Source of the DNA: a virus
Virus record (IMG/VR): IMGVR_UViG_3300035183_000082
Location: 1 to 36,979 of that record
Reading direction: 5' to 3' (one strand)
Length of the DNA: 36,979 nt
The translations under genes and the position numbers were made by a program. Shown here in pieces: positions 1-32,825 of this stretch (its first letter is position 1; every line of letters starts with the position of its first letter). The notes beneath the pieces were generated by a model, which was not told the origin of the DNA, searched no databases, and saw nothing but the letters and a program-made list of their open reading frames with translations.

Positions 1-147
1 GGCGTTGTGGATGACAGGGGCGACGAAGAAGAGCCCGACAAGATCGACTGCGGTGAGATCGTCACGATCCCCCGCGGTTGCGTATGTGGGGACATAATCC
101 CGCTTGACGTGCGTCCTGCACTGAAGAAAAAGGTGGTGCTGAAGTGA
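1..147 (+). CDS. 3' end of an unidentified gene (partial)
   Basis: An open frame enters from the left edge and ends at a TGA at 145-147, leaving 48 visible residues. The tail is acidic at first and then lysine-rich, with three cysteines (one TIPRGCVCGD stretch) that could bind metal, but no family is recognisable from so little. Its stop overlaps the GTG start of the dNMP kinase gene (GTGA), the tight coupling seen throughout this operon, which is the main reason to believe it is translated. Function unknown. Confidence 0.55.
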   Translation, partial: GVVDDRGDEEEPDKIDCGEIVTIPRGCVCGDIIPLDVRPALKKKVVLK

Positions 148-698
148 TCATCGGGCTTGCTGGTAAGATCGGAGCAGGTAAGACAACAGCCGCCCTCGAT
201 CTTTGCGACAACTACGGGTTCACCCGCAATCGTTTCGCGGGCCCCATCAAAGACATGATGCGCGCCCTCGGACTGACTGAGCAGGAGATCGATGGGGATC
301 TCAAGAATAGCCCCTGTCCACTTCTATGTGGGCGTACTCCTCGCCATGCGATGCAGACGCTTGGAACGGAGTGGGGACGCGATTTGATCCATCCCGACTT
401 TTGGGTGTCGGTCTGGAAGTCTCGTTGTAGCTCCGACCGCATCGTTGCCGATGACGTGCGCTTCCCGAATGAAGCCGCCGCCATCCGTGCGATGGGCGGT
501 AAGGTCATCATGATCAAGCGCCCCATCAAGGTCCCTGCCGATCTAGTGGACCCCGCAGGCTCTCCTTTCGAGACGAAAACCCTGCACGCCTCGGAGCGTT
601 TCGAGTTCGAGCCTGACACGGAAGTCGTGAATGACGGTACCCTCGAGCAGCTCTATACGCGCGTTCGAGCAGCCGCCTGCCTTGTGAGTCAGTCATGA
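144..698 (+). CDS. Deoxynucleoside monophosphate kinase
   Basis: A 184-residue P-loop kinase predicted to phosphorylate dNMPs to dNDPs in the cytoplasm for phage DNA synthesis. The Walker A motif GKIGAGKTT is at residues 7-15. A DDVRFPNEA segment near residues 103-111 and the overall length match the phage dNMP kinase family (T4 gp1-like). The start is a GTG overlapping the stop of the preceding gene, and its own end overlaps the next ATG (ATGA at 695-698). It sits among head genes beside an HD nucleotidase, so nucleotide metabolism genes are found in both transcription blocks of this phage. Which dNMPs it accepts, and whether one is a modified base, cannot be read from the sequence. Confidence 0.85.
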   Translation: MIIGLAGKIGAGKTTAALDLCDNYGFTRNRFAGPIKDMMRALGLTEQEIDGDLKNSPCPLLCGRTPRHAMQTLGTEWGRDLIHPDFWVSVWKSRCSSDRIVADDVRFPNEAAAIRAMGGKVIMIKRPIKVPADLVDPAGSPFETKTLHASERFEFEPDTEVVNDGTLEQLYTRVRAAACLVSQS

Positions 699-1309
699 GC
701 CAGGAAAGCATCATGCGCGGCGACGGCTGCGGGTGGATACAACTGGCGACTGGTCGCAAGTTCCGGGTGCCCGCCTTTTCGCCGGACGAGATCACAATCG
801 AGGACGTGGCGCATGCCCTGTCCATGCAATGTAGATATGCGGGGCATTGCCTCCGGTTCCTCTCCGTCGCCGAGCATTGCGTGCACCTATGGCGTTGTGC
901 CCCTGCACACGTCAAATATCCCGCCCTGATGCACGACAGCTCCGAGTCCGTCTTGTCGGACATTCCGCGTTCTATCAAAGACTTGATGCCTGAGTATCGC
1001 GCACTCGAGGATCGGATCATGCACATGATGGCGAAGAAGTGGTGCTTCGAGTGGCCGATGCACCCAATCGTCCGGGAGCTCGACTCGCGCATCCTGCTTG
1101 ACGAGCGGGCACAGAATATGCCGAAGTTCCTGCTCCCGGGTCAGCCCTTCTCCGCTCCTGCCGGCTACAGCTACGTCGAAGAGGAGGCCGATGGCTGGCC
1201 CTTCCAGTTGGAGCCTCTCGGCATCAAGCTCGAGTTCTGGTCCCCGCATGAAGCCGAGATGCGGTTCTTGGAGGCATTCAATGTCAGTGCACCAGCATCA
1301 GTGCGGTGA
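695..1309 (+). CDS. HD-domain nucleotidase (YfbR-like)
   Basis: A 204-residue HD-superfamily metal-dependent phosphohydrolase. Visible metal ligands are H61 in the SVAEHC segment, the H80-D81 doublet in ALMHDSSE, and D89 in LSDIP. This matches the order H...HD...D of YfbR-type 5'-deoxynucleotidases, which remove phosphate from dNMPs. It is translationally coupled to the kinase before it (ATGA overlap). The 3' end overlaps the start of the minor head gene by 29 bases. A kinase and an HD nucleotidase side by side suggest control of the deoxynucleotide pool during infection. The exact substrate is inference, and dNTPase activity is also possible for this superfamily. Confidence 0.8.
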   Translation: MSQESIMRGDGCGWIQLATGRKFRVPAFSPDEITIEDVAHALSMQCRYAGHCLRFLSVAEHCVHLWRCAPAHVKYPALMHDSSESVLSDIPRSIKDLMPEYRALEDRIMHMMAKKWCFEWPMHPIVRELDSRILLDERAQNMPKFLLPGQPFSAPAGYSYVEEEADGWPFQLEPLGIKLEFWSPHEAEMRFLEAFNVSAPASVR

Positions 1310-2204
1310 CCATGGGGTCCCTGATCGGGACCCTACTGGCACCTTCAAGATCAGGCGGCGCTTCGACCGCGAGGTAACGGAACGCTACGACAAGCTCCGC
1401 AAGCTCGTCTCGAGGACCTTGCTCGGCCTCGACGTGCTTGGAGCCAAGGGCGCATCGGAGAGCTCCATCTCCTTTGCGCGATTGTATGGGGACCACAATC
1501 CATATCACGCCTTCATGGCTTGGCTCCGCGATGCGACGGCACAAACGGTATTGGGGCCGACGAACGCGCGCTGGTCCGACGTATACGTGCTGGCCTCGTA
1601 CGCGCATGGAGCGCGTAAGGCGACCATGAAGTGCCGTGCCGCGAAGACGCGCGGCGTCTGGACCCGTATCAAGGACGCCGACTCGACAGACCCAATCCAT
1701 GCGACCTCCCTGGCGACAGGGTACTCCCGGACATTCGACAGCTTCAAGAACGTGACCGACGTGATGCTCGCGCAGGTCTCGCGCATTATCGCGGAAGCTG
1801 CCATGCGCCAGTGGGACCCGGAGAAGGTCAATAGGGCCGTACTCGATCGGGTGGCGCGCATCGGCATGACACGGTCGCGGGTCGTGGTGGCATATGAGAC
1901 CGTCATGTCCTACTACGCTGCCAGCTTGAACGTCTACTCGGAAGCCGGCGTGCACAACTTGAGGATCATTCCTGAGTACGTGCCGAACCCGCAACGCAAG
2001 GTCAGAGACGCCACTCGTGTCTACTACGTGCCGAAGGGGCGATGGCCGAAGGCCGAGTGGGTGACGCAAAAAGACGATCTAGTTTGCCCGCAGTGCGAGG
2101 CCCTTGACGGCCAGATCTTTACCATCTACACGGCCTCACGTATGTTGCCAGTGCATCCGAACTGCCGATGCGACTATGAGCCGATCTTTGACGAGGACGC
2201 GTAA
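1281..2204 (+). CDS. Minor head protein, Mu gpF / SPP1 gp7-like
   Basis: A 307-residue protein whose C-terminus carries the family signature: CPQCEALDGQ at 269-278, followed by P-V-H-P-N-C-R-C at 290-297. This is the Cys/His-rich end of phage Mu protein F-like head morphogenesis proteins. These proteins lie inside the procapsid near the portal and help head assembly or DNA ejection. The ATG at 1281 was chosen because GGAGG lies about 7 bases upstream and the conserved region begins soon after. The frame is open further upstream, but only antisense to nothing useful and inside the HD gene. The stop overlaps the next start (TAATG). The portal gene would be expected to the left of the window. 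Confidence 0.85.
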   Translation: MSVHQHQCGDHGVPDRDPTGTFKIRRRFDREVTERYDKLRKLVSRTLLGLDVLGAKGASESSISFARLYGDHNPYHAFMAWLRDATAQTVLGPTNARWSDVYVLASYAHGARKATMKCRAAKTRGVWTRIKDADSTDPIHATSLATGYSRTFDSFKNVTDVMLAQVSRIIAEAAMRQWDPEKVNRAVLDRVARIGMTRSRVVVAYETVMSYYAASLNVYSEAGVHNLRIIPEYVPNPQRKVRDATRVYYVPKGRWPKAEWVTQKDDLVCPQCEALDGQIFTIYTASRMLPVHPNCRCDYEPIFDEDA

Positions 2205-2482
2205 TGACAAAAGTCAATGGGGTGAAAATCACGCAGCCGCTCTTTGGGCCGGACGGCAATCCGGTCACTGGCCGCACCCTCGATCCCGAGGAGGTTTCCA
2301 AGCGGGTCCGCAAGAGACCCGCGCATGAGTACGAGGAAGCATCGAAACGTCTTTTCATTATGGCCGAGTTCTTCCAGAAGTCCAACATGCCGAAGAATAT
2401 CGTGGACGATGTAGTGAAGGGCGCGGTCCTACTTGGAGAGGTATACGTTGCCAAGAGAGAAGGGATCATCAAGAACGCATAA
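2204..2482 (+). CDS. Hypothetical protein, 92 residues
   Basis: A short soluble protein of no family I recognise. The N-terminus contains a G-P-D-G-N-P-V-T-G-R turn-rich stretch and the rest looks helical and charged (EEVSKRVRKR, then EYEEASKRLF). Its start overlaps the stop of the minor head gene by one base (TAATG), so it is probably translated by re-initiation. By position it may be a small head-associated factor, but nothing in the sequence proves that. Confidence 0.65.
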   Translation: MTKVNGVKITQPLFGPDGNPVTGRTLDPEEVSKRVRKRPAHEYEEASKRLFIMAEFFQKSNMPKNIVDDVVKGAVLLGEVYVAKREGIIKNA

Positions 2483-2639
2483 GGTCATTTGGTGCTTGAA
2501 TGACCGCGGAGCATGGGGAAGCTCCTTGTGGGATGTGCTTCGGAAGCGTGGGTGGGGTGGGGGCCTATTTCAATCGCCGATAACGCCGACAGGGCATCCT
2601 TGCTTCGCCTTCATGCGGATCAATCAAGGGGGCTTCCGC
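2483..2639. other. Short non-coding gap before the ATP-grasp cassette
   Basis: About 157 bases in a genome where neighbouring genes usually overlap. Frames crossing it look like shadows without ribosome binding sites. The run contains a G-rich stretch around 2550-2570 and ends in an AAGGGGG ribosome binding site serving the ATG at 2640. No convincing promoter or terminator is visible. The gap marks the left edge of the accessory cassette. Confidence 0.4.
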
Positions 2640-3362
2640 ATGGATCAGGAGAAAGAGATCCTCATGAAGCTGAGCCAAGCCGGGTTCGTCACGATCCCCT
2701 CAGTCGAAGACTCGGAAGCCTATGAGGACAAACTCCTGCAGTCCCGTCTCTACCGCAAGTGGATGCCCCGGACTCTGATCTCTACCAATCGTGCCGAGGC
2801 CGAGTCGTTTGTCGGAACGCTGCCGTACCCGTTCATCTCTAAGTCGCGAACGGGGTCTGCTTCGTGTAATGTGCGACTTGTCAAGAGTGCGGCGGAAGCT
2901 CGCAAGGAGATCGCTCAGGCCTTTGGTCCTATCGGTCTTCGCGTACCACACAAGCTGGGTGAGCATATTCAAAAGGGGTACATCATCTGGCAGGAGTTTT
3001 GCCTTGATAATCCCTATGACTACCGTGTCTGCCGGATTGGTAACGATACGATGATGCTTCGCCGGTATAATCGTGACGATGTTCCGTTTGCATCGGGGTC
3101 CGGCAAAACAGAACCCGTGAAAATACTAGATGGTGAGACGCTGGACGTATTCACCTTTGCTGATCAGTTCTTCACAGCGACGGGAACCAAATGGTGCGGC
3201 ATCGACGTTGTGAAGGCGCGCGGGGGCTGGAAACTTCTGGAGACGACAATCGGTTGGTCGCAAAAGGCGTATGCCGATTGTGTATTCTTCGAGTCTGGGC
3301 GCCCCGGTGCGGATATTTGGGAGCTGACAGCAGATCAGTTGGAGCGAGGAGTTTTCGGATGA
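2640..3362 (+). CDS. ATP-grasp superfamily ligase
   Basis: A 240-residue protein with the ATP-grasp layout: a lysine in the PFISKSRTGSAS segment (K68, phosphate-loop region), a hinge-like IIWQEFCLDNPYDYRV stretch (115-130), R-R-Y-N near 141-144, and metal-ligand candidates D189 (WCGIDVVKA) and E201 (LLETTIGWS). ATP-grasp enzymes join a carboxylate to an amine or thiol through an acyl-phosphate. The partner substrates here are unknown. The ATG at 2640 is preferred because AAGGGGG lies 7-8 bases before it; an earlier in-frame ATG at 2613 has no such site. The domain is compact, lacking much of the N-terminal subdomain of typical members. It overlaps the next gene by ATGA. Possible roles are modification of a sugar, a nucleotide or a virion protein. 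Confidence 0.7.
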   Translation: MDQEKEILMKLSQAGFVTIPSVEDSEAYEDKLLQSRLYRKWMPRTLISTNRAEAESFVGTLPYPFISKSRTGSASCNVRLVKSAAEARKEIAQAFGPIGLRVPHKLGEHIQKGYIIWQEFCLDNPYDYRVCRIGNDTMMLRRYNRDDVPFASGSGKTEPVKILDGETLDVFTFADQFFTATGTKWCGIDVVKARGGWKLLETTIGWSQKAYADCVFFESGRPGADIWELTADQLERGVFG

Positions 3363-3616
3363 ACTTGGCAAAAGTGTGTGACAGGGTAGACGTGCGTATG
3401 GAGCACTTGCGTGAGGGACTTAGAGAACTTTCAATCGGGGACGCTGCAACCCAGGCAGGAGCTTTTATGCCGAGACTTAAAATCTCGCGCCGCGCCGTGG
3501 CGGCAATCTTCGCCACGCATTTTCACTGCCTGCAGTTTCCCCCTGAGTCGCAGGAGCCGACGCATGAGGAGCTGCTAGAGCTCTGGAAGATCCTTAAAGA
3601 GGAGATCATTGACTGA
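3359..3616 (+). CDS. Hypothetical protein, 85 residues
   Basis: Small, apparently helical and soluble, ending in an acidic and leucine-rich C-terminus (EELLELWKILKEEI). I recognise no family. The ATG at 3359 overlaps the ATP-grasp stop (ATGA), and its TGA overlaps the epimerase start (TGATG), so it is locked between two enzyme genes and is very likely translated. An upstream extension in the same frame lies wholly inside the ATP-grasp gene and is rejected. It may be a small partner of one of its neighbours. Confidence 0.65.
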   Translation: MNLAKVCDRVDVRMEHLREGLRELSIGDAATQAGAFMPRLKISRRAVAAIFATHFHCLQFPPESQEPTHEELLELWKILKEEIID

Positions 3617-4542
3617 TGGGGGGCATCCTTATCACCGGCTGCTACGGGTTCCTCGGGCACGCTACCGCCGTCCGCTTGTTGAGGGAGGGGCATCGCGTCA
3701 TCGGCATTGACAAGGAGCGTGATGCGATTAGCCCCAAGGGGCCGCGCATCGCCGACCTCGCGCAGTACAAGCAATTCGAGTTCAACGACCTGAACCTCAC
3801 GAACTATGACGGGGTCGTGAAGCTGTTTTGCGATAATAAGCCCGATATGGTCGTGCACTTCGCGGCGCAGTACTCTGTGCCTCTTCGCACACAAACGGCG
3901 CTTCAGTTCAGAGATGCAAATCTGATTGGATACTTCAATCTAATGGAAGCGTGCCGCATCTCAGGAGTACCCAAAGTGCTCTATGCCAGCTCGACCTTCG
4001 TACAGGATAATTCTCTTCCGAAGTCGATGTATGGAGCCACCAAGGAGTTCGGCGAGCGATGCGGCAACGTCTATTGTCATGAGGCCGGGATGGGCTTCAC
4101 GGCACTTCGCTTCGGCTCGACTTATGGCCCCGACTGCCGCCCCGATGTCGCCGCACACCAGCTCGTGAAGAAGCTCTTCGCGCGCCAGCCCATTGATGTC
4201 ACAGTCGGCGGCTTCAATTACAAGGTTGCGTTCCTCTACGTTGATGATGCGGTCGAGACCGTGGTGCGCTGCCTCAGCGTCGATTGGCCTTGTCTCTACA
4301 ATGTCTATACAGTCGTAGCCGAGGACTATCTCGCCGACCTGAACGATATTCTGACCGCGCTCGAGGAGCACTCCGGCATCAAGGCTGATCGGCGCGGTGA
4401 GCTGTCACCCCGACAAGGCTTCGTCATTCCGACTGAGAAGTGCGAACGTCTCCGCGAGTTCTGCGGATATGCCCCATCAACAAAACTCAACGAAGGCATC
4501 CGGCAGTTCGTGGAATGGTACAAGACGAAGCGCTCACGGTAG
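3616..4542 (+). CDS. NAD-dependent sugar-nucleotide epimerase (extended SDR)
   Basis: A 308-residue extended short-chain dehydrogenase. The Rossmann motif ITGCYGFLG is at residues 6-14, an acidic residue D32 ends the second strand, and the HFAAQ segment is at 81-85. The catalytic set is S125/S126/T127 with Y139-x3-K143 (MYGATKEFGE). The ordering and the LYASST segment resemble NDP-sugar 4-epimerases, in particular UDP-glucuronate epimerase-like proteins, so the expected reaction is epimerisation or dehydration of a nucleotide sugar. It is followed directly by two glycosyltransferase-like genes, which suggests it supplies their donor sugar. The gene overlaps the next one by 28 bases. Confidence 0.85.
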   Translation: MGGILITGCYGFLGHATAVRLLREGHRVIGIDKERDAISPKGPRIADLAQYKQFEFNDLNLTNYDGVVKLFCDNKPDMVVHFAAQYSVPLRTQTALQFRDANLIGYFNLMEACRISGVPKVLYASSTFVQDNSLPKSMYGATKEFGERCGNVYCHEAGMGFTALRFGSTYGPDCRPDVAAHQLVKKLFARQPIDVTVGGFNYKVAFLYVDDAVETVVRCLSVDWPCLYNVYTVVAEDYLADLNDILTALEEHSGIKADRRGELSPRQGFVIPTEKCERLREFCGYAPSTKLNEGIRQFVEWYKTKRSR

Positions 4543-5336
4543 TTCTCTGGCTTTGGAATGGGTGGCGTCCTGTCTACGACTACACCCATGTCAACGCCAT
4601 GGTGCGCATGCTCCGCGCGAACCTCAGCATCCCGTTTCGGATTGTCTGCTTCACGGACCTGCCGGACACTAGCAGCTTCATTTGCGAGACTCGTCCGCTT
4701 TGGGATATTGAGTTCAATGTCCTCGACCTTGACACAAAACCCGGTGCGCGACGGCCCCCTTTGCATAGGCTGAACCATAAGCCCTTGCATCCTCGCTTGC
4801 GAAAACCTCTTATTGTGCAGCCTATAGTGCAGCCTCCACAGCCGACTACAAAACCGAACTCCTACCGGCGTCTTCGCATGTTCAGTGAGTGGGCAGCGCA
4901 AGAGTTTCCCGGCACGATACTAAGCATTGACCTCGATGCGGTTGTAGTCAGCGACCTAGCGCCGATCCTGACCGATCATGACTTCCGTATCAATAAGGGG
5001 CGCTGCTCTCCCTATAACGGAGGCATGTGGATGCTCCGGACAGGGACAAGGCAACAGGTTTGGGATCAGTTCGGGTGCCATGCGTACCGCACCACAAGAC
5101 AGCGCGGTTGGATTGGTTCCGATCAGGCATGGATTGCCCACGTCTGCCCGAATGAGGCAACCTGGGATGCGGAGGACGGGGTCTACCATTACTCCTTGGC
5201 GACGAGGTCTGATCCCCTGCCGGAGTGCCGGGTCATGTTTACTGCGGGTGCAATCAAGCCTTGGCACGAGCAATTTCGCAAGCGCCATCCTGTGTTGCAC
5301 GGCATCTACATGAGGGCCCTTCGGTGCTCAACGTAA
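4515..5336 (+). CDS. Glycosyltransferase-like protein A (GT-A fold, DxD)
   Basis: A 273-residue protein with a GT-A-type nucleotide-sugar binding core: the hydrophobic strand TILSIDLDAVVVSDL carries the D139-L-D141 motif, followed by YNGGMWMLR and GSDQAW. All of these recur in the next gene, so the two are paralogs. A proline- and lysine-rich insert at about residues 74-114, containing an IVQP near-repeat, separates the N-terminal strand region from the core and is absent from the paralog. The start at 4515 lies inside the end of the epimerase gene and no strong ribosome site is visible, so coupling is likely. The acceptor is unknown; capsid or tail protein, phage DNA and host surface glycan are all possible. 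Confidence 0.7.
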   Translation: MVQDEALTVVLWLWNGWRPVYDYTHVNAMVRMLRANLSIPFRIVCFTDLPDTSSFICETRPLWDIEFNVLDLDTKPGARRPPLHRLNHKPLHPRLRKPLIVQPIVQPPQPTTKPNSYRRLRMFSEWAAQEFPGTILSIDLDAVVVSDLAPILTDHDFRINKGRCSPYNGGMWMLRTGTRQQVWDQFGCHAYRTTRQRGWIGSDQAWIAHVCPNEATWDAEDGVYHYSLATRSDPLPECRVMFTAGAIKPWHEQFRKRHPVLHGIYMRALRCST

Positions 5337-6076
5337 TCTGCTGGAAGTGGGGCACGAAGTTCACCGCGCAGCATATCAACTGGCTTCGTGACCAGCTCCT
5401 TTGGGGTATGCGTGGCGAGTCGTTCCGGTTGATCTGTGTGACGGACGATGCGCGCGGCATCGAGTGTGAGACGTTTCCACTGTGGAATGATTACGCCGAC
5501 GTGCCTGCCCCGCACGGACCTCATGGCGCGAGCTGCTTCCGGCGTCTCAAGCTCTTCAAGCCCGGCCAACTCCGCGAGATGGGTATCGCCGATGGCGAGT
5601 GGGTCGTGTCGATTGACGTGGACGTGCTGGTCATGGGTGATATCCGTCCGATCATGTTCAAGGAGGGAGCCGACTTCCTCGGCCTCAAAGTGAAGGGTGC
5701 GCGACATCCCATCGTCTATAACGGCACCCTATGGAAGTTCCGCGCGGGGACCCTCGCCACTTTGTGGGAGGGGTTCAATCCGGCCGCTTCGCCGAAGCTG
5801 CACAAGAACGCCGGGTATTTTGGCAGTGATCAGGCTCATTTTTCCTACTGTCTGATCAGGGGGCAAGGCATGAGCGCAGGGTGGGATGAAAGTGACGGTA
5901 TATACGCCTATCGGAGTTTGCGCGGACAGGGCTCCATGCCCGCGAATGCTCGTCTAATCAATTTCTGTGGGAGGTGGAACCCCTGGGATGCCGATGTGCA
6001 GAAGCACTCAGCATGGGTTCTGAATTTTTGGCCTCCGCGTAACTCAGGTCTTGCAATCTCGGAGAACCGAGGCTAA
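5324..6076 (+). CDS. Glycosyltransferase-like protein B (GT-A fold, DxD)
   Basis: A 250-residue paralog of the preceding protein. Shared landmarks in the same order are PLW at 52-54, the DxD strand VVSIDVDVLVMGDI (D98-V-D100), an R-P-I after it, YNGTLWKFR, GSDQAHF and DGIYAYRS. It lacks the proline-rich insert of protein A. The start is a GTG at 5324, 13 bases inside the end of gene A, with a GAGGG stretch upstream. No ATG in frame fits better. It closes the cassette; an 80-base gap follows before the head maturation gene. A tandem duplication that then diverged could give two enzymes adding successive sugars. Confidence 0.7.
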   Translation: MLNVICWKWGTKFTAQHINWLRDQLLWGMRGESFRLICVTDDARGIECETFPLWNDYADVPAPHGPHGASCFRRLKLFKPGQLREMGIADGEWVVSIDVDVLVMGDIRPIMFKEGADFLGLKVKGARHPIVYNGTLWKFRAGTLATLWEGFNPAASPKLHKNAGYFGSDQAHFSYCLIRGQGMSAGWDESDGIYAYRSLRGQGSMPANARLINFCGRWNPWDADVQKHSAWVLNFWPPRNSGLAISENRG

Positions 6077-6156
6077 ATCCTACAAACGAGTTACCGCGGT
6101 GGGGGCAACTTGAGTGCGGTAGCTTTGACCCCTTATTCAATCGGACAGGTGTTGAC

Positions 6157-8172
6157 ATGCCGAAGCCTCACGCAGGTGAGAGCCAGGACGATTTTATCTC
6201 GCGCTGCATGGCCGACCCTGAGGCGCGGCGCGATCACCCCGGACAAAAGGAGCGCGCTGGCTTCTGCTATGGGATGTGGAAGCAGCACGCGAAGGATGCC
6301 GATCTCAAGGACGCCGATCTCTATGCGTCCTACTGTGCCGAGAAGTTCATCGTTACGGGTGACGGCATCTTCGAAGGTCGCGCGCTGACCTTCGCGACGG
6401 AAGACGACAATTACGGCTACACGTTTGCGCCGGACGCCTTCAACGACAGCCTTGAGACGCGCGGTGTGCGCGGCATCAAGATGCTCTATGAGCATGACGT
6501 GCAGAAGCCTGTCGGTGCGTGGCAAGAGATCCGAGTCCAGAGTGACGGCCTCTACGTAAGGGGTAAACTCACCCTCGAGACCGAACTCGGCAAAGAGGTC
6601 AAGGCGCTCATGGAGGATGGGGCCCTTGGCGCGCTCAGCGTCGGCTTCATGATCAAGGAGATCGAGGACAAGCACATCCTCAAAGCCGATCTCCTCGAGA
6701 TCTCCATTGTGTCCTTCCCTGCCGATCAGACCGCGACTATCGGCATGGACGCGCTTCGTCATTACCCCGCGAACGCGGCTCTACCGAAGGCCGTGCGCTC
6801 CGTGTTGCCTCCCGACGCACAGACGCTCTATCGGAAGGCGTACAACCAATACGCTGCCAGTCACCCCGATGCGCCGACCTCGCGCGCGGCGGCGGTGGCA
6901 TGGCAAGCCGTGAGACGCAAGTTCAGTGCTCCAGCAAAGGAAGCAGGCATGTGGGTTCAGAAGATCAAGCATGACGGCGATGGCGGTTCGACTTGTGTCA
7001 TGGCGGACGCCATGATGCTTGATGGCGTGAAGAGGACCGCCGATGGTTATCTCACTGCATACGCCAAAGTTGCCCGGACGGGTATTCAGCTCTACCGGGG
7101 TTTCGAGTGCGGGCGGCCGGACCTCGATGTAGTCCGGGTCTACCGTCCCCCTGCCGAGGTCTTCGACAGGGAAGCACTTATGTCCTTCGCCCACAAGCCG
7201 ATCACACTAGATCACCCAAGCGAAATGGTTTCTGCCGAGAACTGGAAGGGATTGGCAGTTGGGCAAATCGGGGACAAGGTGGAGTTCGGCGAAAACTTCG
7301 TGCGAGTTCCCCTTGTCCTCATGGATGCAGCCGCGATCAAAGCAGTTGAAAGCGGCAAGCGTGAGCTGTCGATGGGCTATACCTGCGACCTCAAATGGGG
7401 TCATGGGTACACCCCCGATGGCGAGGAATATGATGCTCAGCAAGTGGGCATCAAGGCTAACCACCTGGCAGTTGTCGCCAAGGCCCGCGGTGGTTCGGAT
7501 TTGAGGATTGGCGACGCAGGAAAGGAAGACGATATGCCTGAGTTGAAGACTCAGACCATCGACGTTGACGGTGTTGAGGTCGTCGTGGCCGATGCCTCGG
7601 CCTCGTACCTCAAGAAGTTCCTGTCCTCGCTCCAGGAGAAGGTTGCGAAGTTAGCGGCTTCAATGGAAGAGGATCAGAAGAAGGCCGACGAGAACCAGAA
7701 GGCCTATAAGAAGGCGAAGGACGAGCTGGACGCTGCCATCGCAGCCAAGGATGCGACCATTGCCGACTTGCAGGCCAAACTCAAGGACGCCGAGCTCACT
7801 CCTGCCAGGCTGGACGCTGCCGTCAAGGACCGCGCCGAGCTGATCGGGAAGGCCAAGGCGATCTTCGGCGACAAGCTCACGGTCGATGGTCAAACCGACT
7901 CGCAGATCCGCCGTCAGGTGGTCAATGCGAAACTCGGTGATACGGCAAAGGATTACACCGACGAGCAGGTTGCCGTCGCGTTCAACACCTTGGCCGCAAC
8001 CACGGACGGCACGAAGCAGCTCGGCTCCGCCATTCGCGACGCCGCGCCTGCTCACAAGCCGGGCTTCGCCGACTCCGGCGAGCACCCGGACAAGACGAAG
8101 GCCTACGACGAGTACGAGCACCGCCTCACCAGCGCGTGGCGTACTCCGAACCCTGCCGCAGCTCAGTATTAA
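6157..8172 (+). CDS. Fused head maturation protein: prohead protease, ChaB, DUF2213 and scaffold
   Basis: A 671-residue multidomain protein. Residues 1-45 form a Cys/Trp-containing N-terminal motif common ahead of phage prohead proteases. Residues about 70-195 are an HK97-type (S78) serine protease with H113 (YEHD) and S161 (GALSVGF). Residues 209-256 match ChaB. Residues about 285-447 match the DUF2213 phage family and repeat the protease pattern with H353 (LDHP) and S405 (ELSMGY). Residues 460-671 are charged, lysine/alanine-rich coiled coil typical of a scaffold. It would clear scaffold during head expansion. The full-length ATG has a weak GGACAGG site. Two internal ATGs, at 6949 and 7534, carry AAAGGAAG sites exactly at domain seams, so nested shorter products are likely. 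Confidence 0.85.
   Translation: MPKPHAGESQDDFISRCMADPEARRDHPGQKERAGFCYGMWKQHAKDADLKDADLYASYCAEKFIVTGDGIFEGRALTFATEDDNYGYTFAPDAFNDSLETRGVRGIKMLYEHDVQKPVGAWQEIRVQSDGLYVRGKLTLETELGKEVKALMEDGALGALSVGFMIKEIEDKHILKADLLEISIVSFPADQTATIGMDALRHYPANAALPKAVRSVLPPDAQTLYRKAYNQYAASHPDAPTSRAAAVAWQAVRRKFSAPAKEAGMWVQKIKHDGDGGSTCVMADAMMLDGVKRTADGYLTAYAKVARTGIQLYRGFECGRPDLDVVRVYRPPAEVFDREALMSFAHKPITLDHPSEMVSAENWKGLAVGQIGDKVEFGENFVRVPLVLMDAAAIKAVESGKRELSMGYTCDLKWGHGYTPDGEEYDAQQVGIKANHLAVVAKARGGSDLRIGDAGKEDDMPELKTQTIDVDGVEVVVADASASYLKKFLSSLQEKVAKLAASMEEDQKKADENQKAYKKAKDELDAAIAAKDATIADLQAKLKDAELTPARLDAAVKDRAELIGKAKAIFGDKLTVDGQTDSQIRRQVVNAKLGDTAKDYTDEQVAVAFNTLAATTDGTKQLGSAIRDAAPAHKPGFADSGEHPDKTKAYDEYEHRLTSAWRTPNPAAAQY
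6936..6951 (+). promoter_or_regulatory. Internal ribosome binding site and ATG before the DUF2213 domain
   Basis: AAAGGAAG at 6936-6943 followed five bases later by an in-frame ATG at 6949 (Met265 of the fused head maturation protein). The same AAAGGAA core precedes the cement, capsid and tail tube genes here. Starting here would give a 407-residue DUF2213 plus scaffold product. Confidence 0.5.
7519..7536 (+). promoter_or_regulatory. Internal ribosome binding site and ATG for a nested scaffold protein
   Basis: GGAAAGGAAG at 7519-7528 with a 5-base spacer to an in-frame ATG at 7534 (Met460). A product from here would be 212 residues (7534-8172) and would consist of just the coiled-coil scaffold. 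This is the arrangement of lambda Nu3 inside gene C, where an internal start yields free scaffold in excess over protease. Confidence 0.55.
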
Positions 8173-8228
8173 GCAGAGCCGGCTCCGGGAAACGTCTTCA
8201 CTGCAAACTCTGTTGAAAGGAAACTGAA

Positions 8229-8693
8229 ATGCCCGCAGTGCAAACCTCCTATTCGGAGCGGATTGCCCAGGCTGTCGAAGGCCAGGTCGGCAACGAGACG
8301 AACTGGGACGCTGACACCAAGATTGTCGAGACCGCAGCCGGTATCGGCTTCGGCAAGGCAGTCTCTCAGGGCACCAGCGACAAGCAGATTGTCGTTGGCG
8401 GCGCCCTGGCCGACTTCGTCGGCATCACGATCAGGGATATCACCCTGCCCGCGTCCCAGAATGACACTTTCGCGGAGGGCGACGAAGTCGGCGTCCTCAC
8501 GGAAGGCGACATTTGGGTCAAGCCCTCTGTCGAAGTCGTGGCCGGTGACCCCGTCCACTACAACGCGACGACCGGTGTGTTCACCAACACTGGCGGCTCG
8601 GGCCCGATCAAGGGCGCGCGCTACATGACCAGCAACGGTGGCGCGAATGGTCTTGCGTTGGTGCGGCTCGGCGGCGGTCTGCCCCCGAACTAA
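8229..8693 (+). CDS. Capsid cement/decoration protein (Gp24-like)
   Basis: A 154-residue protein resembling the structural cement (Gp24-like) family found next to DUF2184 capsid genes. The N-terminus VQTSYSERIAQAVEGQV leads into a beta-rich region with GIGFGKAV, FVGITIRDITLP and a GDEVGVLTEGDIWV stretch. These proteins bind the outside of the expanded capsid and stabilise it. A good AAAGGAA ribosome site lies upstream, and the gene lies just before the major capsid gene, as expected. Expression should be as high as that of the capsid protein. Confidence 0.8.
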   Translation: MPAVQTSYSERIAQAVEGQVGNETNWDADTKIVETAAGIGFGKAVSQGTSDKQIVVGGALADFVGITIRDITLPASQNDTFAEGDEVGVLTEGDIWVKPSVEVVAGDPVHYNATTGVFTNTGGSGPIKGARYMTSNGGANGLALVRLGGGLPPN

Positions 8694-8722
8694 GCCTGAG
8701 CCTCTCGCTCCATAAGTAACCA

Positions 8723-8744
8723 GGCCCGTCCCGGAGGACGTGCC
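8723..8744 (+). other. Hairpin in the leader of the major capsid gene
   Basis: GGCCCGTCC and GGACGTGCC, separated by CGGA, can form a 9-bp stem with one mismatch. It lies between the cement stop and the AAAGGAAG ribosome site at about 8758-8765. No T-run follows, so it is not a standard terminator. It could protect the capsid mRNA 5' end or mark a processing point. Functional assignment is inference. Confidence 0.35.
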
Positions 8745-8771
8745 CAGCTCCTGCAAGAAAGGAAGTACCAC

Positions 8772-9755
8772 ATGCCCCGCATGTCCTTTGCGGATGCCCA
8801 GCAACAGGCGCTGGGCTTCCTCATTGAGCAGACGTCGTATATTGAGCCGCAGGTCGTCAAGATCCTGTATCCCAATATCCAGTACCCTGCTCTCATCCCT
8901 GTTGATACTTCGGCACCTGAGTGGGCCAAGTCAGTCACGTTCTACTCGACCGACATGGTTGGTCGTGCAGAATGGTTCCATGCCAATGCCAAGGACATCC
9001 CGCTGGCCGACGTGACCCGCGAGAAGTTCGAGCAGGGCATCAAGATGGCGGCTATCGGCTACCGTTACAATCTCGAGGAGTTGGGCCAGGCCATGATGGT
9101 CGGCGTCAACCTGTCCTCGGATCGTGCGGAAGCGGCTCGTCGGGCGTACGAGGAATTCCTCGATGACAAGCTGCTCAACGGCGACGCCGACGTGCTCTGG
9201 GAAGGTCTGCTTGACAACTCCTCAGTCACGACCATTATCGCTGCCGAGAACACTGCCAGCTCTGCCAATACCACGTTGTGGACTGGCAAGACGGGTGATC
9301 AGGTCATTGCAGACGTCAACAATGCCCTGACCGGCGTTTGGACCAACTCGAAGCAAATCGAGATGGCCGACACCGTCCTGCTCTCGCCCGCGGATCTGTC
9401 GTACATTGCGACGACCCCGCGCGCGGCAGACGGCGCATCGGATATGTCGATCATGGACTGGCTGATGCGGTACAACGTCTACACGGCGATGACCGGGCAG
9501 CCTCTCATGGTTCGCGCAGTCCGTGGTCTCGAGACGGTCGGCACCGGCGGCTCTGGCCGCATGATTGTCTACCGCCGCGATCCGCAGGTGCTCAAGGCGC
9601 ATCTCCCGATGCCTCACCGCTTCCTGCCCGTTTGGCAGACCGGCCCTGTCACCTTCGACGTTCCGGGTATCTTCCGCTTCGGCGGTCTCGAGATCCGGCG
9701 TCCGGGTGCGGTCCGTTATGTTGACGGTATTAGCGGCGTGAACCTCTACTCGTAA
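8772..9755 (+). CDS. Major capsid protein (DUF2184, HK97-fold)
   Basis: A 327-residue major head subunit. The pattern of an N-terminal QTSYIEPQV segment, the YPALIPVDTSAPEWAKSVTF stretch, and a C-terminal LPVWQTGPVTFDVPGIFR region matches the DUF2184 capsid family used by BPP-1-like phages and others. It forms the icosahedral shell and is preceded by its protease/scaffold and cement genes. The ATG at 8772 follows AAAGGAAG with an 8-base spacer. A strong intrinsic terminator 30 bases after the stop ends this high-expression unit. Confidence 0.88.
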   Translation: MPRMSFADAQQQALGFLIEQTSYIEPQVVKILYPNIQYPALIPVDTSAPEWAKSVTFYSTDMVGRAEWFHANAKDIPLADVTREKFEQGIKMAAIGYRYNLEELGQAMMVGVNLSSDRAEAARRAYEEFLDDKLLNGDADVLWEGLLDNSSVTTIIAAENTASSANTTLWTGKTGDQVIADVNNALTGVWTNSKQIEMADTVLLSPADLSYIATTPRAADGASDMSIMDWLMRYNVYTAMTGQPLMVRAVRGLETVGTGGSGRMIVYRRDPQVLKAHLPMPHRFLPVWQTGPVTFDVPGIFRFGGLEIRRPGAVRYVDGISGVNLYS

Positions 9756-9785
9756 GGGTAGCGGCACACAAGAACAGTATGATTT

Positions 9786-9813
9786 GGGCGGGGCCTCTGG
9801 GTCCCGCCCTTTT
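9786..9813 (+). terminator. Rho-independent terminator after the major capsid gene
   Basis: GGGCGGGGCC at 9786-9795 pairs with GGTCCCGCCC at 9800-9809, with one G-T wobble, around a TCTG loop. TTTT (9810-9813) follows. It separates the head shell genes from the connector genes and probably lets some transcripts through, since no clear new promoter is visible before 9844. Confidence 0.8.
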
Positions 9814-9843
9814 CATATTAGAGTGAGGAAAGGAAACCTACCT

Positions 9844-10236
9844 GTGGTGAAAGTCGTTTTGCGAAACATGGGCAAAGCGCCCAAGGGGTGCCATGACAAG
9901 AACGGCCAGTCCGTCATGGTTGACCCCGGCAAGGAGCGGGAAGCCGATCTCACGGAGACGATGGCGAACTTCTTGTCGAACGCCGACAGCGATCTGGTGG
10001 TCATCATCAAGGGTGATCAGGGCGCCGATGCCCCGACTAAGCCCGAGGTGCAGAAGTCGGGAGTCAAGGACAGCAAGAAGCCAGGCAAGGCGATCCCGAT
10101 CCCTGCCGACTGGCCCAACCTGGGCTGGAACGCACGCCGGAAGCTGGCAATGGAGATCAGTGGCGGAAAGGTATCGGGTGGCGCGCACGCCAACTCGATC
10201 ATTGAAGCCGAACTCGAGCGTCAGGCCAGCCTCTAA
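9844..10236 (+). CDS. Hypothetical protein between capsid and connector genes, 130 residues
   Basis: The start is taken as GTG 9844 (or GTG 9847), since AAAGGAAA lies just upstream; the longer frame back to 9784 would run through the terminator and is rejected. The N-terminal half looks like a small beta domain (VVKVVLRNMG, then VMVDPGKEREADL). A basic linker with KSGVKDSKKPGK follows, and then a helical C-terminus beginning WNARRKLAMEI. No catalytic motif is visible. By position it may be a head-tail joining or head fibre base protein. Function is not established. Confidence 0.6.
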   Translation: MVKVVLRNMGKAPKGCHDKNGQSVMVDPGKEREADLTETMANFLSNADSDLVVIIKGDQGADAPTKPEVQKSGVKDSKKPGKAIPIPADWPNLGWNARRKLAMEISGGKVSGGAHANSIIEAELERQASL

Positions 10237-10245
10237 GAGGTTCCG

Positions 10246-10590
10246 ATGGCATATACCCCACCCACCATTGCCGACTTCCAGGCTCGGTTCCCCGAGTTCG
10301 AAGACGCGGAGGAGGAGCTTATCCAGCTCGCGCTCAACGACGCTGCACGCGCGGTTGGGACGAATTGGATTGAAGCCGACTATGCGACCGGCATCCTGCT
10401 TCTAGCAGCCCATGCCATGCAGGTGGGTGGGGGTGCCTACGACTCCGGCGGCCTGCGATCATTCTCAATCGGAGCCATCTCCGTGACGTATGCCGACTTC
10501 GACAAGGTGGCGAAGCTCGACACCACGTCCTACGGGCAGCAGTTCATCAGTCTGCGTAATAGGAACGCGCGCGGGGTGGTGGTGATCTGA
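10246..10590 (+). CDS. Head-tail adaptor (DUF4054-like)
   Basis: A 114-residue protein whose opening PPTIADFQARFPEF and following acidic helices with AARAVGTNW and GILLLAAHAM match the DUF4054 phage family. Members correspond to HK97 gp6-type adaptors that bind the portal under the capsid vertex. It starts ten bases after the previous stop with an AAGAGG ribosome site, and ends overlapping the next start (TGATG). It is the first gene of a coupled connector set of three. Confidence 0.75.
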   Translation: MAYTPPTIADFQARFPEFEDAEEELIQLALNDAARAVGTNWIEADYATGILLLAAHAMQVGGGAYDSGGLRSFSIGAISVTYADFDKVAKLDTTSYGQQFISLRNRNARGVVVI

Positions 10591-10925
10591 TGGGACTTAA
10601 TTATGCCCGGATGCAGCGCATTGTCGACCGCCAGATTAAGAGTTTTGGTGGCGGTACGAACAATGCTGCGCTTCGTCGGGCCGGGTCTGACAGGTCATGC
10701 AGCGTTGTTATTTTGTCGTTCAGCGAGCGCGACTTTGCGGGTGGTTTGATTGAGCGGACGGACAAGCGTGTTCTGATTAGCGCTCTGAACCTGACCCCTG
10801 ACCCCGACTTCCAGCTCGATAGTCTCATCCTCGGCGGTGTCGAGCACAAGATGGTATTCGCGCCGACCCCTCTGGCTCCCGATGGCACGACAGTGCTTTA
10901 TTGGGAAGTTGTCGCGAGATTGTAA
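10590..10925 (+). CDS. Probable head closure / neck protein
   Basis: A 111-residue beta-rich protein. It is placed between the DUF4054 adaptor and a tail-terminator-sized gene, which is the usual place for a head closure protein (HK97 gp7 / SPP1 gp16 role) that plugs the portal after packaging. The sequence itself has no diagnostic motif I recognise; it reads as strands (SCSVVILSFSE, KRVLISALNL, HKMVFAPTPL, TVLYWEVVARL). Start and stop overlap both neighbours (TGATG and TAATG), showing translational coupling. Confidence 0.55.
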   Translation: MGLNYARMQRIVDRQIKSFGGGTNNAALRRAGSDRSCSVVILSFSERDFAGGLIERTDKRVLISALNLTPDPDFQLDSLILGGVEHKMVFAPTPLAPDGTTVLYWEVVARL

Positions 10926-11425
10926 TGGCCGACAAGCGTACCATGATCCTCGAGCGGCTGCTCGCGATACTCGAGGCTGTGCCCTTGCAACTGGGGTATG
11001 ATCAGCACTCGGTATTCCGCGACAGGGGGCTGCTCCAAAAGGACCAGCTCCCGGCCTTCGTGCTGCTCGATGGCGTGGAGGAAGCGGCGAACGCTGACTT
11101 CCAAATGCTTCGCAGGGGCCGGCAGTTCATGGCTCCACAGTTGATGCAACTCCGTCCGCAAATCTTCGTGTTGCTCGAGGAGCGCAAGCTCCCTGGCAAC
11201 GAGGGGGTGGCGGAAGAACTGACCACCTTCCGCAACGCCATCATCTCGGCGGTTGCGAACGATGCACTGCTCATGCAGATCTGCGGTCCAAATGGCGGAG
11301 TTGCCCTGCTCCGCGTAGAGACCGATATGCAGACAGGGGCCGCGGTAGTCGGACAGCTCCGGTTCGACTTCGCGTTCAATTACGTCTTAGACCCGTACCG
11401 TTTGCCGGACGGTTCGACAACTTAA
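10925..11425 (+). CDS. Probable tail terminator / tail completion protein
   Basis: A 166-residue protein with an N-terminal helix (RTMILERLLAILEAV), followed by strands. An LFLEE-like patch, here FVLLEERKLPGNEG, and a C-terminal VGQLRFDFAFNYVLDP strand follow. Size, fold impression and position immediately before the tail tube gene fit the tail terminator that caps the tube and joins it to the head. The ATG at 10925 overlaps the previous stop (TAATG); an in-frame start at 10901 lies inside the upstream gene and is less likely. The assignment is mainly positional. Confidence 0.6.
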   Translation: MADKRTMILERLLAILEAVPLQLGYDQHSVFRDRGLLQKDQLPAFVLLDGVEEAANADFQMLRRGRQFMAPQLMQLRPQIFVLLEERKLPGNEGVAEELTTFRNAIISAVANDALLMQICGPNGGVALLRVETDMQTGAAVVGQLRFDFAFNYVLDPYRLPDGSTT

Positions 11426-11447
11426 CCGAAAGGAAAGGACGGCATAA

Positions 11448-12287
11448 ATGCCCAGTTTGTTCGCTCCCAACATCGATAACTACTTCGTCGGTAAGGGTGT
11501 GGTGATGTTCAAGCCGGACGGCGATACGCATTACCACTTCATTGGAAACGTGACGGAGTTCGAGTTCAGCCCGACGCTCGAAACCCTCGATCACTTTTCG
11601 TCCATGTCGGGTGTCAAGTCCAAGGACAAGACCGTCGTTCTGCAAAAGGGCGGCACGGTCCGCATGGTCATGGAAGAGCTGACCGCGCGCAACCTGGCCC
11701 TGTTCCTCTTGGGCGATGTCGATCTCACGGACCCGGACGTTCCGACCATCGAGATCTTTGGCTCCAACCTCAAGTCTGGTGCGATGAAGTTCATCGGCAC
11801 CAACGAGATCGGCCCGCGGTGGAACTATGACTTCGCCCGTGTCGACTTCGTGCCCTCGGGTTCGTTCAATCCGATCAGCGACGAGTGGGGCAATTTGGAG
11901 GTCACGGGAAACCTTGCCGAAGTGGATGGCACGTTCGGCACGGCGACCCTCACGAACCTAAACAACGAGGGTCCGCCGATCTGCATTGCTCTGCCCTCCT
12001 TCACGAGCAACGATGCCGACCTCGACACGATGTTGTCAGTCGGCGACACGCTCACGGCAGACAACGGCACCTGGCTCAACTACGGCGACACGGCGCTCAC
12101 TTATGCCTATCGCTGGTTGGCCGATGGAGTCGCGATTGGCGGTGCCACCGCGAGCACCTATACGCTCACGGGCAGCGAGGTGGGCTCGATCATTCAGGTC
12201 GAGGTCACTGCCACCAACGAGAACGGTTCTGCCGTCGCAGCCTCGGAGCCTTATGGTCCACTCCAGGGCTCTGACGTTACGACCTGA
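11448..12287 (+). CDS. Major tail tube protein with C-terminal Ig-like domain
   Basis: A 279-residue protein. Residues 1-190 have the tail tube layout (GKGVVMFKPDGD, then FIGNVTEFEFSP, then a W-N-Y-D-F strand near the end of the domain). Residues about 198-272 form a bacterial Ig-like domain, with LSVGDTLTADNGTW, then YAYRWLADGVAI, then YTLTGSEVGSIIQVEVTATN. The first part stacks as hexamers to form the tail tube. The Ig-like part would project from the tail surface and may weakly bind host glycans, as known for other phages. A strong AAAGGAAAGGA ribosome site precedes the ATG, consistent with high copy number. Confidence 0.8.
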   Translation: MPSLFAPNIDNYFVGKGVVMFKPDGDTHYHFIGNVTEFEFSPTLETLDHFSSMSGVKSKDKTVVLQKGGTVRMVMEELTARNLALFLLGDVDLTDPDVPTIEIFGSNLKSGAMKFIGTNEIGPRWNYDFARVDFVPSGSFNPISDEWGNLEVTGNLAEVDGTFGTATLTNLNNEGPPICIALPSFTSNDADLDTMLSVGDTLTADNGTWLNYGDTALTYAYRWLADGVAIGGATASTYTLTGSEVGSIIQVEVTATNENGSAVAASEPYGPLQGSDVTT

Positions 12288-24299: not shown

Positions 24300-26153
24300 T
24301 CACCCCTCGATTTGTGAGGCTCCGGTAGGGGTTTTAATCACTGTCAGCACGGATGCGAAGCGCGCGCTCTCAACGCTCTGGTGATCGACGTAGAAGGTCT
24401 GCCGTCGCAGTCCCTGAGCGCGTTGCGCCAGGTAGTCGCACAAATCGCGCACCCCTTCCGGCGACAAGTGTTGCGTCGGCTCGTCCAGGATCTCGAGACC
24501 GCACTCGACCCCGGCGTAGTTCATGAGGGTTTCTGAGAGTGCCAGGGCGCCGACGATGCGAAGGCGCTGCCCCTCACCCCCTGACCAAGACTCCCACTTG
24601 ACGGCCTTCTCCAGCCCCGGCGAAAGGACTGTGACGTTCAGGCCGCGTGTAGTCCCACCCGTCTTGTTCTCCTTCTCCACGTCGAACTTCACCTGCCATC
24701 CGATCAGCCCAACGTCCTCGAGCGCGGCGTTCGTGTTGATCTCTAGCTCCTGCAAGACGTCTTCGATGATGAAGAGCCTCACGTCCTTGAAGCCACGGCT
24801 CCAGTAGGCCGCGCGCTCGGACAGGCGGCCGAGAGTGGCGACACTCTTTTTCAGCTCCTTGATTTCAGCATTGGTCTTCGCGATCAGCTTGCGCGCGGAC
24901 TGCAGTTGCGCGGTATAGGGGTTGTCCTCTTCTTCGCGTTCCGTGCGGGTGCGCTCGAGAGCAGCGATTTGCGCGCGGGTTGTCTCCAGACTCTTGTTGA
25001 CGAGATCGAGCTCCTGGCGCGCATTCTCCAGCTCCGTCTCCCACCTCTCGGCACTCGCCTTGAGCAGCCGGACGGCGCGCTTCCATTTAGCAGCGGCCTT
25101 CTCGAGCTTCACGGTCGAGATCTTTTTGAGGTGCTTCTCCGCCTTCTCGATCTTGATGGTGACGTGGGTCTTGTCAATCTCCGATTTGATCGGCTGACCG
25201 CAGGTCGGACAGACCTTGTCACTCAGCGATGCACGGAGCTCGCGGATCTCCCTTCGCATCCGTTCGGCATTACCTTGTGCTGTCAGCAAAAGGGAGTTAG
25301 CCTTTTGCATCTCTTCGACCGCCGACGCGATCTCCTTGCGGATGCTTTTTAATTGAACTTCTGCCCAATCGGCCTTCGGGTCTAGTTCGGCGTGACGGTG
25401 CTCAAGACTCTCACGCGCCTTCTTAAGCTCCGTGAGTTCCTTCTCTTGCTGCGCGAGGCGTATTTGCCGCTCGTCCTCCCACTCCCTTGATCTGATCTTG
25501 CTCTCCTCGAGCTGCTCCTTGTAGCGCTCCAGGCTGACAGTCAGCGCGTCCAGTTCTCCTTGTCGGGTAGCCTGCTTCGTGCTGAGTGCCCGTGATTTCG
25601 CGGTTGCTGCCTCGGCACGGCGCTCCCATTTGTCCAGCTCCAGCACGTCGGAGAACAGCTGGAGCTTGTCGCGCGGGGGCATGTCGAAGAACAGTGGACG
25701 ACCTTGCCCCAGGAGTCGGGTATGCGTGAATGTCTCAAACGACAAACCCACGAGTCTCTCGACCTGCTCCTGTCCGATGCTGCCCGACTGTGGTGCTTCT
25801 CCTTTGCCTCCGTCCTCTTGCAGGTGCAGCATGTTCGGGTTCGCTGATCGGGTGAGGATGTAGGTCTTGCCGTCCACCCGCATCTCGAGGGTGACTTCGG
25901 TCCCGCGCTTCTTGCCGAACCAGGGGGTTATATCGGGATTGCGGAGGCCTTCGACTGTCCGGCCATATAAGCACCAGCACAGAGCATCCCATATTGACGA
26001 CTTGCCGGAACCGTTCGAGCCGAGAGCCGGCTCTTTGAGATTGCGGCCCCGAATGAAGTGAAGTCCTGGACCCATCGCCTCGAGATCAAGCCGCGCCTCG
26101 GCAAAGGCTTTGAAGTTCTTAATACCAATGCCGAGGAATTCGACCTTCTTCAT
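24300..26153 (-). CDS. SbcC/Rad50/T4 gp46-like recombination ATPase
   Basis: A 617-residue SMC-type ATPase, the partner of the SbcD-like nuclease encoded nearby. The Walker A motif GSNGSGKSS is at residues 45-53 and a zinc hook C315-P-T-C318 sits in the middle of a long coiled coil (about 180-480). The ABC signature SGGEGQ is at 524-529, Walker B LEILDEP at 553-559, and an H-loop histidine lies near 591. Complexes of this kind process double-strand ends to load the recombinase. The length is close to phage gp46. ATGA overlap joins it to the small ORF upstream; it is the last gene of the - strand operon. Confidence 0.9.
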   Translation of the reverse strand: MKKVEFLGIGIKNFKAFAEARLDLEAMGPGLHFIRGRNLKEPALGSNGSGKSSIWDALCWCLYGRTVEGLRNPDITPWFGKKRGTEVTLEMRVDGKTYILTRSANPNMLHLQEDGGKGEAPQSGSIGQEQVERLVGLSFETFTHTRLLGQGRPLFFDMPPRDKLQLFSDVLELDKWERRAEAATAKSRALSTKQATRQGELDALTVSLERYKEQLEESKIRSREWEDERQIRLAQQEKELTELKKARESLEHRHAELDPKADWAEVQLKSIRKEIASAVEEMQKANSLLLTAQGNAERMRREIRELRASLSDKVCPTCGQPIKSEIDKTHVTIKIEKAEKHLKKISTVKLEKAAAKWKRAVRLLKASAERWETELENARQELDLVNKSLETTRAQIAALERTRTEREEEDNPYTAQLQSARKLIAKTNAEIKELKKSVATLGRLSERAAYWSRGFKDVRLFIIEDVLQELEINTNAALEDVGLIGWQVKFDVEKENKTGGTTRGLNVTVLSPGLEKAVKWESWSGGEGQRLRIVGALALSETLMNYAGVECGLEILDEPTQHLSPEGVRDLCDYLAQRAQGLRRQTFYVDHQSVESARFASVLTVIKTPTGASQIEG

Positions 26154-26347: not shown

Positions 26348-26348
26348 G

Positions 26349-32127: not shown

Positions 32128-32144
32128 TTCAGTTCTCCTTCTTG

Positions 32145-32810: not shown

Positions 32811-32825
32811 GCCATGACATACTTC

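Follow-up and report, generated by a model that had tools for sequence, protein, structure and literature searches.

Five coupled genes in the head gene module

The DNA analyzed here, a 36,979-base virus record that is an incomplete contig (IMG/VR record IMGVR_UViG_3300035183_000082; the window), carries a cassette of genes for an ATP-grasp ligase, an 85-residue protein, a nucleoside diphosphate (NDP)-sugar epimerase and two glycosyltransferases (GT1 and GT2), which probably glycosylates virion proteins during assembly. An initial annotation of the window had placed five coupled genes between a minor head protein and the prohead protease, and this arrangement was borne out. All five genes (2448-6076) are open frames on the + strand, codon preference is positive in frame (0.005 to 0.19 log-odds per codon, lowest for GT1) and negative in the two other frames (−0.33 to −0.56), and successive genes overlap (ATP-grasp/85-residue gene: ATGA at 3359-3362; 85-residue gene/epimerase: TGATG at 3614-3618; epimerase/GT1: 4515-4542; GT1/GT2: 5324-5336). 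The neighbors were also as described, with a MuF protein upstream and a gene combining S78 protease, ChaB and DUF2213 downstream, followed by a cement protein and then the major capsid protein (MCP) (Table 1). The start of the ATP-grasp gene was not: it had been set at 2640, whereas the open frame extends upstream to TTG 2433. We place the start near TTG 2448, because this codon has a GGAGAGG ribosome-binding site 6 bases upstream and because the N-terminal part that would be lost from 2640 is kept in 8/8 aligned relatives.

Table 1. Genes and features of the window discussed in the text
Feature	Position	Strand	Evidence or remark
Deoxynucleoside monophosphate (dNMP) kinase	144-698	+	Upstream of HD nucleotidase
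HD nucleotidase	695-1309	+	Downstream of dNMP kinase, directly upstream of MuF gene
MuF-type minor head protein	1098-2204 (open reading frame [ORF] limits; true start probably later)	+	PHROG head morphogenesis, E = 3.7e-20; upstream flank of slot
92-residue protein between MuF and cassette	2204-2482	+	Relative in contig L012 (51%)
ATP-grasp ligase, 304 residues, predicted RimK/LysX/ArgX-like fold	2448-3362, start TTG 2448	+	Predicted fold, nine-member alignment
85-residue orphan protein overlapping both neighbors	3359-3616	+	Codon preference in frame 0.066 vs −0.55
NDP-sugar epimerase	3616-4542	+	Pfam Epimerase, E = 2.1e-33
GT8-like glycosyltransferase 1 (GT1), 273 residues	4515-5336	+	PHROG glycosyltransferase, E = 6.6e-6; DxD and GSDQ kept
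GT8-like glycosyltransferase 2 (GT2), 250 residues	5324-6076	+	AlphaFold2 (AF2) model, LgtC-like; family profile
Prohead protease (S78) + ChaB + DUF2213 fusion, 671 residues	6157-8172	+	Downstream flank of slot
MCP	8772-9755	+	Pfam Major_capside, E = 7.3e-83
MCP C-terminal tail SGVNLYS, proposed acceptor	9732-9752	+	Tail/cassette association

The ATP-grasp/GT8 pair recurs among virion genes

Scanning IMG/VR with an ATP-grasp profile returned 23 loci, 19 of them distinct once identical contigs were removed (labels beginning with L denote other IMG/VR contigs). Although GT8 genes were not asked for, each of the 19 distinct loci had one within its cassette (22 of the 23 loci; the exception, L095, is a fragment whose sequence is identical to L094). 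Every distinct contig had virion genes around the cassette, and ten carried it in the slot that it occupies in the window, nine with MuF before and the protease after and one with MuF followed by the contig end. Four more lay downstream of a terminase, and the remaining five were found with portal and protease (L108), a head protease (L105), a head-tail adaptor (L107), a terminase (L113) or a major tail protein (L097, the same contig as L046). Homologs occurring only as scattered, unrelated genes, which by the initial annotation would have spoken against its proposal, are not what the scan showed. Three further ATP-grasp contigs from the capsid scan described below (L120, L128, L137) all have GT8. 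Additional cassette genes vary (methyltransferases, GT2 enzymes, sialyltransferase-like proteins, UDP-glucose dehydrogenase) and the order is reversed in L089, L112 and L114. Because the pair recurs throughout, down to the pair alone in L106 and L109, we regard ATP-grasp plus GT8 as the core of the cassette.

A hydropathy of 1.9 was reached by only 3 of 75 cassette proteins from 20 loci and by none of the six window proteins between 2204 and 6076 (highest 19-residue value, 1.61), and for this reason no flippase or membrane GT is seen in the cassettes. Together with the late head-gene position and the virion-gene surroundings of all 19 distinct ATP-grasp contigs, the lack of membrane proteins among those six makes it improbable that the cassette alters the host surface (e.g., O-antigen) and so blocks superinfection or adsorption, which is how epimerase/GT clusters of cyanophages are interpreted in PMC7824862.

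The slot between MuF and protease seems to be a general insertion site, as L119, a phage lacking the cassette, holds another protein there. This protein (7343-8119) resembles a papain-type protease, judged by what we take to be the motif of that family. Elsewhere in the window, the minus strand (24300-27803 and 29801-36727) encodes an SbcC/SbcD-like pair, a UvsX-like recombinase, a single-strand-binding-like protein, a clamp loader and a DNA polymerase.

A capsid tail accompanies the cassette

MCPs with and without an upstream sugar cassette were compared using the best 80 of 344 relatives from an IMG/VR scan seeded by the window MCP, plus 14 earlier loci. These 94 MCPs comprised 70 distinct sequences, of which 14 were set aside as their upstream side was not visible, leaving 56. 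L117 was counted as a cassette phage, its MCP being equal to that of L118, and the label "no ATP-grasp" is uncertain for L125 and L126, which have little upstream sequence. A tail of 5-8 residues past the conserved RY.DG end was present in 19/19 distinct MCPs with a cassette and in 1/37 without (Fisher P = 4.7e-14, with non-independent rows); among the latter the tail measured 0 residues in 33, 1 in one, 4 in two (L119, L121) and 6 in one (L139). The tails of cassette phages (SGVNLYS in the window, VTNQYS, SDYAS, IDADYE, LTSDELS and others) all have Ser or Glu as their last residue. Mapped on the MCP tree, the cassette label requires three changes (one is compatible with the strongly supported branches), compared to a mean of 16 for shuffled labels, and lineages with neither cassette nor tail (L127/L130/L133/L176 and L132/L142/L178/L191) sit between cassette clades at moderately supported forks. 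The association of tail and cassette is a strong lead, not proof. A precedent for a C-terminal capsid glycan comes from mycobacteriophages, in which the C-terminal ends of both capsid and tail-tube subunits carry glycans (Freeman 2023, cited in PMC12619734). The chance that the MCP tail is the main acceptor appears to us nearly even.

The last residue of the tail was considered as the target of the ATP-grasp enzyme and rejected, since tails end alike where ATP-grasp is present (7 Ser and 3 Glu of 10) and where it was not seen (7 Ser and 2 Glu of 9), which points away from that residue and towards a sugar as substrate.

Glycosylation of packaged DNA, offered by the initial annotation alongside that of capsid or other virion proteins, is disfavored. 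A dNMP kinase and an HD nucleotidase do lie just upstream (144-1309), a pair that occupies the corresponding place before the MuF gene in L012, L095 and L096, and there are phage GTs that take part in DNA hypermodification (according to a title cited in PMC12619734). Yet among mapped ATP-grasp loci this kinase/HD pair occurs only in the window and in L012/L094/L095/L096, neither the cassettes and their adjoining genes nor the part of the window proteins scanned on this incomplete contig yielded a base-modifying gene, and modified DNA would leave the capsid tail unexplained. We therefore consider a DNA target highly improbable, the virion-protein half of the proposal being the better supported by both the recurrence of the ATP-grasp/GT8 pair and the MCP tail.

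Predicted activities of the cassette enzymes

The two glycosyltransferases are classed as CAZy GT8-like on their predicted GT-A fold, similar to that of LgtC and glycogenin. Structure prediction, suggested by the initial annotation, gave an AF2 model of GT2 (pLDDT [predicted local distance difference test] 91) that superposes on LgtC (Z = 18.7, 217 residues), LARGE1 (Z = 16.7) and glycogenin (Z = 16.5), and the family profile matches glycogenin (E = 6e-4). Foldseek's own ranking of the model puts blood-group A/B transferases first, which we take to be another GT-A family. The DxD metal motif and an Asp-Gln pair (D98, D100, D169, Q170) are invariant in 25 GT sequences. The initial annotation had called the two genes twins; they are paralogs, though not recent ones, as they share 28% identity and fall in different clades. 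In a tree of 45 chosen rows, all from ATP-grasp loci and 12 other loci, GT1 has counterparts in L012, L096 and L046 (support 99/98), GT2 groups with GT2 of L012 (support 99/95), and well-supported branches part the two. Each window GT thus pairs with its own counterpart in L012, and we conclude from the tree that they are two old paralogs with separate histories. The family occurs at no fewer than 125 loci in IMG/VR, and of 80 GT8 loci compared, 52 have a gene for a head or connector protein no more than 2.5 kb away. It was found at 2 loci in 84,980 bacterial and archaeal genomes under a stricter pattern than the IMG/VR scan, and its relatives among 50,697 phage records were four only, EBPR siphovirus 3 and three records of two Tetraselmis viridis viruses.

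The ATP-grasp protein matched no Pfam or PHROG model, and NCBIfam LysX/RimK models matched below their cut-offs (LysX_arch, E = 1.7e-7). Its AF2 model, built from the nine-sequence alignment (pLDDT 88), superposes on ArgX with Z = 23.6 over 265 aligned residues (root-mean-square deviation 3.2) and on LysX and RimK with Z = 22.4 each. We assign it, mainly because of this predicted fold, which extends across the full chain, to the ATP-grasp superfamily as a putative RimK/LysX-like member. The RimK-type motif presumably consists of a nucleotide-binding Lys and the metal ligands Asp and Glu-x-Asn; here Lys132 and Asp253 do not vary, and 8/9 aligned sequences have Glu265. In L024 (7104-7985) the active-site motif reads TGFT in place of LETT, and this protein is perhaps inactive. 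No relative of the protein was found among the 50,697 phage records at 1e-5 or at 1, nor was any match to the ATP-grasp protein of L106, a second relative, in phage records or to that of L012 in 72,556 plasmids. Viral scans seeded by a single ATP-grasp protein or a single protease gave no relative, and megablast of window positions 1-12000 gave no match in phage records. The one PDB match to the single sequence (E = 1.7) was taken as chance. A viral structure library held many viral ATP-grasp models at TM (template modeling) scores of about 0.3-0.55, none clearly of the same family. RimK, LysX and ArgX act on carboxylates of proteins. The amide-type linkage that the initial annotation ascribed to the ATP-grasp enzyme is a putative activity, supported by fold and context.

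The closest PDB match of the epimerase is 5u4q (E = 1.9e-49), followed by 6zl6 and MoeE5. We take 6zl6 to be the UDP-glucuronate 4-epimerase of B. cereus, and 5u4q is presumably of the same kind. The short-chain dehydrogenase/reductase (SDR) nucleotide motif and the catalytic Tyr-xxx-Lys pair are present, with T7, G8, G11, F12, G14, Y139 and K143 identical in all six relatives. PMC12338863 lists MoeE5 among UDP-glucuronate 4-epimerases and describes Arg185 of the B. cereus enzyme as holding the product carboxylate. Arg175 of the window protein aligns with Arg185 of 6zl6, an agreement that is not decisive, as Arg may occur here in other SDRs. By sequence, then, the protein resembles UDP-glucuronate 4-epimerases. 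An epimerase or UDP-glucose dehydrogenase was found in 8/21 ATP-grasp cassettes and in 1/61 GT8 cassettes without ATP-grasp (Fisher P = 4e-5), a P value that is only a guide, because rows are related and both profiles were built from ATP-grasp loci, which introduces bias. The 61 were reduced from 72 loci; the 21 include L089 and L114 (86% identical) and exclude L120, L128 and L137.

The 85-residue protein had no match in Pfam, PHROGs or NCBIfam and no relative among the loci then collected. A role as a LysW-like carrier was rejected, the small ORFs beside ATP-grasp genes varying among loci. In five loci (L089, L112, L113, L114, L115) the gene after that for ATP-grasp encodes a protein of ∼80-110 residues that has a single hydrophobic segment and, in common among the five, a RET...G..GR motif; the segment is absent from the 85-residue protein of the window.

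A proposed route to a modified capsid

Virion glycosylation is the most economical reading of the cassette, because it accounts for the late head operon position, the soluble enzymes, the capsid tail and the fact that the cassette keeps turning up beside virion genes. The epimerase would convert a UDP-sugar to a uronic form (UDP-glucuronic acid to UDP-galacturonic acid), and the GT8 enzymes, a fold class given by modeling, would transfer sugars from UDP donors to a cytoplasmic acceptor, most likely the C-terminal tail of the MCP (SGVNLYS in the window), as the correlation suggests. The ATP-grasp enzyme would activate a carboxylate with ATP and join it to an amine, most likely amidating a uronic acid. 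In the Campylobacter capsule an ATP-grasp domain amidates glucuronic acid (PMC11800379), and this precedent, with the co-occurrence of uronate enzymes and ATP-grasp, leads us to favor uronic-acid amidation among the possible reactions, at a probability somewhat short of even. The complete scheme, a GT8-added sugar on the MCP tail closed by an ATP-grasp amide (uronamide or amino-acid linkage), with tail and cassette gained and lost together, is tentative and, taken as a whole, doubtful.

It is also possible, though rather unlikely, that the ATP-grasp enzyme serves the same virion target by adding an amino acid to a protein carboxylate, the GT8 enzymes then glycosylating that residue. Such a ligase would fit the nearest folds (ArgX, LysX and RimK, Z = 22-24), the Ser or Glu at the end of capsid tails, and the minimal pair of L106 and L109, which includes no sugar-making enzyme. 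However, the final residue of the tail is Ser or Glu whether or not an ATP-grasp gene is in view, and uronate-type enzymes track ATP-grasp.

Several observations weigh against the proposed route. The third metal-binding position of the ATP-grasp enzyme, which we take to be Asn in RimK, is Thr in 8/9 aligned sequences and Thr/Ser across the family, and the L024 enzyme also lacks the Glu. By the profiles used, 13/21 ATP-grasp cassettes have no uronate enzyme, and under uronic-acid amidation these would need host uronate or another substrate. The link between tail and cassette amounts to 1-3 evolutionary events, and shared descent could therefore explain it. L139 has a tail (IIPAST), and L119 and L121 have 4-residue tails, with no cassette found. 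GT8 cassettes are also found in phages whose capsid is of another type, next to collagen-like proteins or tail-fiber-like genes (L006), so the acceptor may differ among phages.

In a further alternative, the acceptor is another virion protein (a collagen-like fiber, a tail tube with an extra C-terminal domain, or MuF), and the MCP tail would simply mark a lineage. Collagen-like GXY runs of 8 or more were found in 18/80 GT8 loci, many at the cassette edge. The cassette of L046 precedes a major tail protein with an Ig-like domain, and the tail-tube candidates of the window (11448-12287) and L012 (13479-14324) both end in DVTT after an extra C-terminal domain, absent in three other distinct relatives. 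This extension is a possible second glycan site. No collagen-like run of that length occurs in the window, so a collagen-like acceptor was rejected for this phage, and we judge the alternative unlikely overall. In Siphovirus-type GT8 cassettes (L023, L025, L028, L034, L043, L047, L048, L057 and others) a gene for a collagen-like protein overlaps the first sugar gene or lies directly next to it, the content being collagen-like, sialyltransferase-like, GT8, FkbM, methyltransferase, GT2 and head-tail adaptor genes. In these phages the collagen-like protein is a likely acceptor.

Comparison with known systems

The phage particle is commonly regarded as bare protein. Tail and cassette together offer a concrete acceptor site at which virion glycosylation beyond the mycobacteriophages can be tested, and suggest a sugar-amide chemistry for which the literature found gives no phage example. 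Such a modification might influence how stable particles are, how they stick to mucus or biofilm, and how they are recognized by the immune system, and the enzymes could be of use for capsid tagging. No description of the ATP-grasp/GT8 gene set in phages, nor an example of capsid protein modification by GT8 plus an ATP-grasp amide, was found in the literature searched, most subscription papers lying outside its reach; the accessible part of PMC7824862 does not describe the gene set of the window.

In gtr-type O-antigen conversion the cluster holds a membrane flippase or membrane GT, neither of which is seen among the six window proteins between 2204 and 6076. The RimK/LysX/ArgX amino-acid ligases share the predicted fold of the ATP-grasp enzyme over the whole chain, but at 16-19% identity, with Thr/Ser in place of the presumed Asn metal ligand and outside the phage head-gene context seen here. 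LgtC, glycogenin and LARGE1 (GT8) are similar to the window GTs in predicted fold and in the DxD and D-Q residues, whereas the latter belong to a phage sequence family with few cellular relatives. In Tetraselmis viridis virus S20, genes of the head module enclose a row of sugar genes that includes one GT relative (31-35% identity), but this virus differs in having no ATP-grasp relative. The Campylobacter protein Cj1438C, a TupA-like ATP-grasp amidoligase of glucuronic acid (PMC11800379), likewise combines an ATP-grasp fold beside sugar transferases with uronic acid chemistry; it acts on a cellular capsule and is TupA-like rather than RimK/LysX-like. The virion glycosylation of mycobacteriophages (Freeman 2023, via PMC12619734) also concerns phage glycans on virion proteins, with capsid and tail-tube C-termini as sites. 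The window differs from it in its GT8 family and in the putative ATP-grasp and uronate enzymes inside the head module. Virion glycosylation as such is known, and what appears new is the ATP-grasp/GT8 core, its phage-centered sequence families and the capsid tail.

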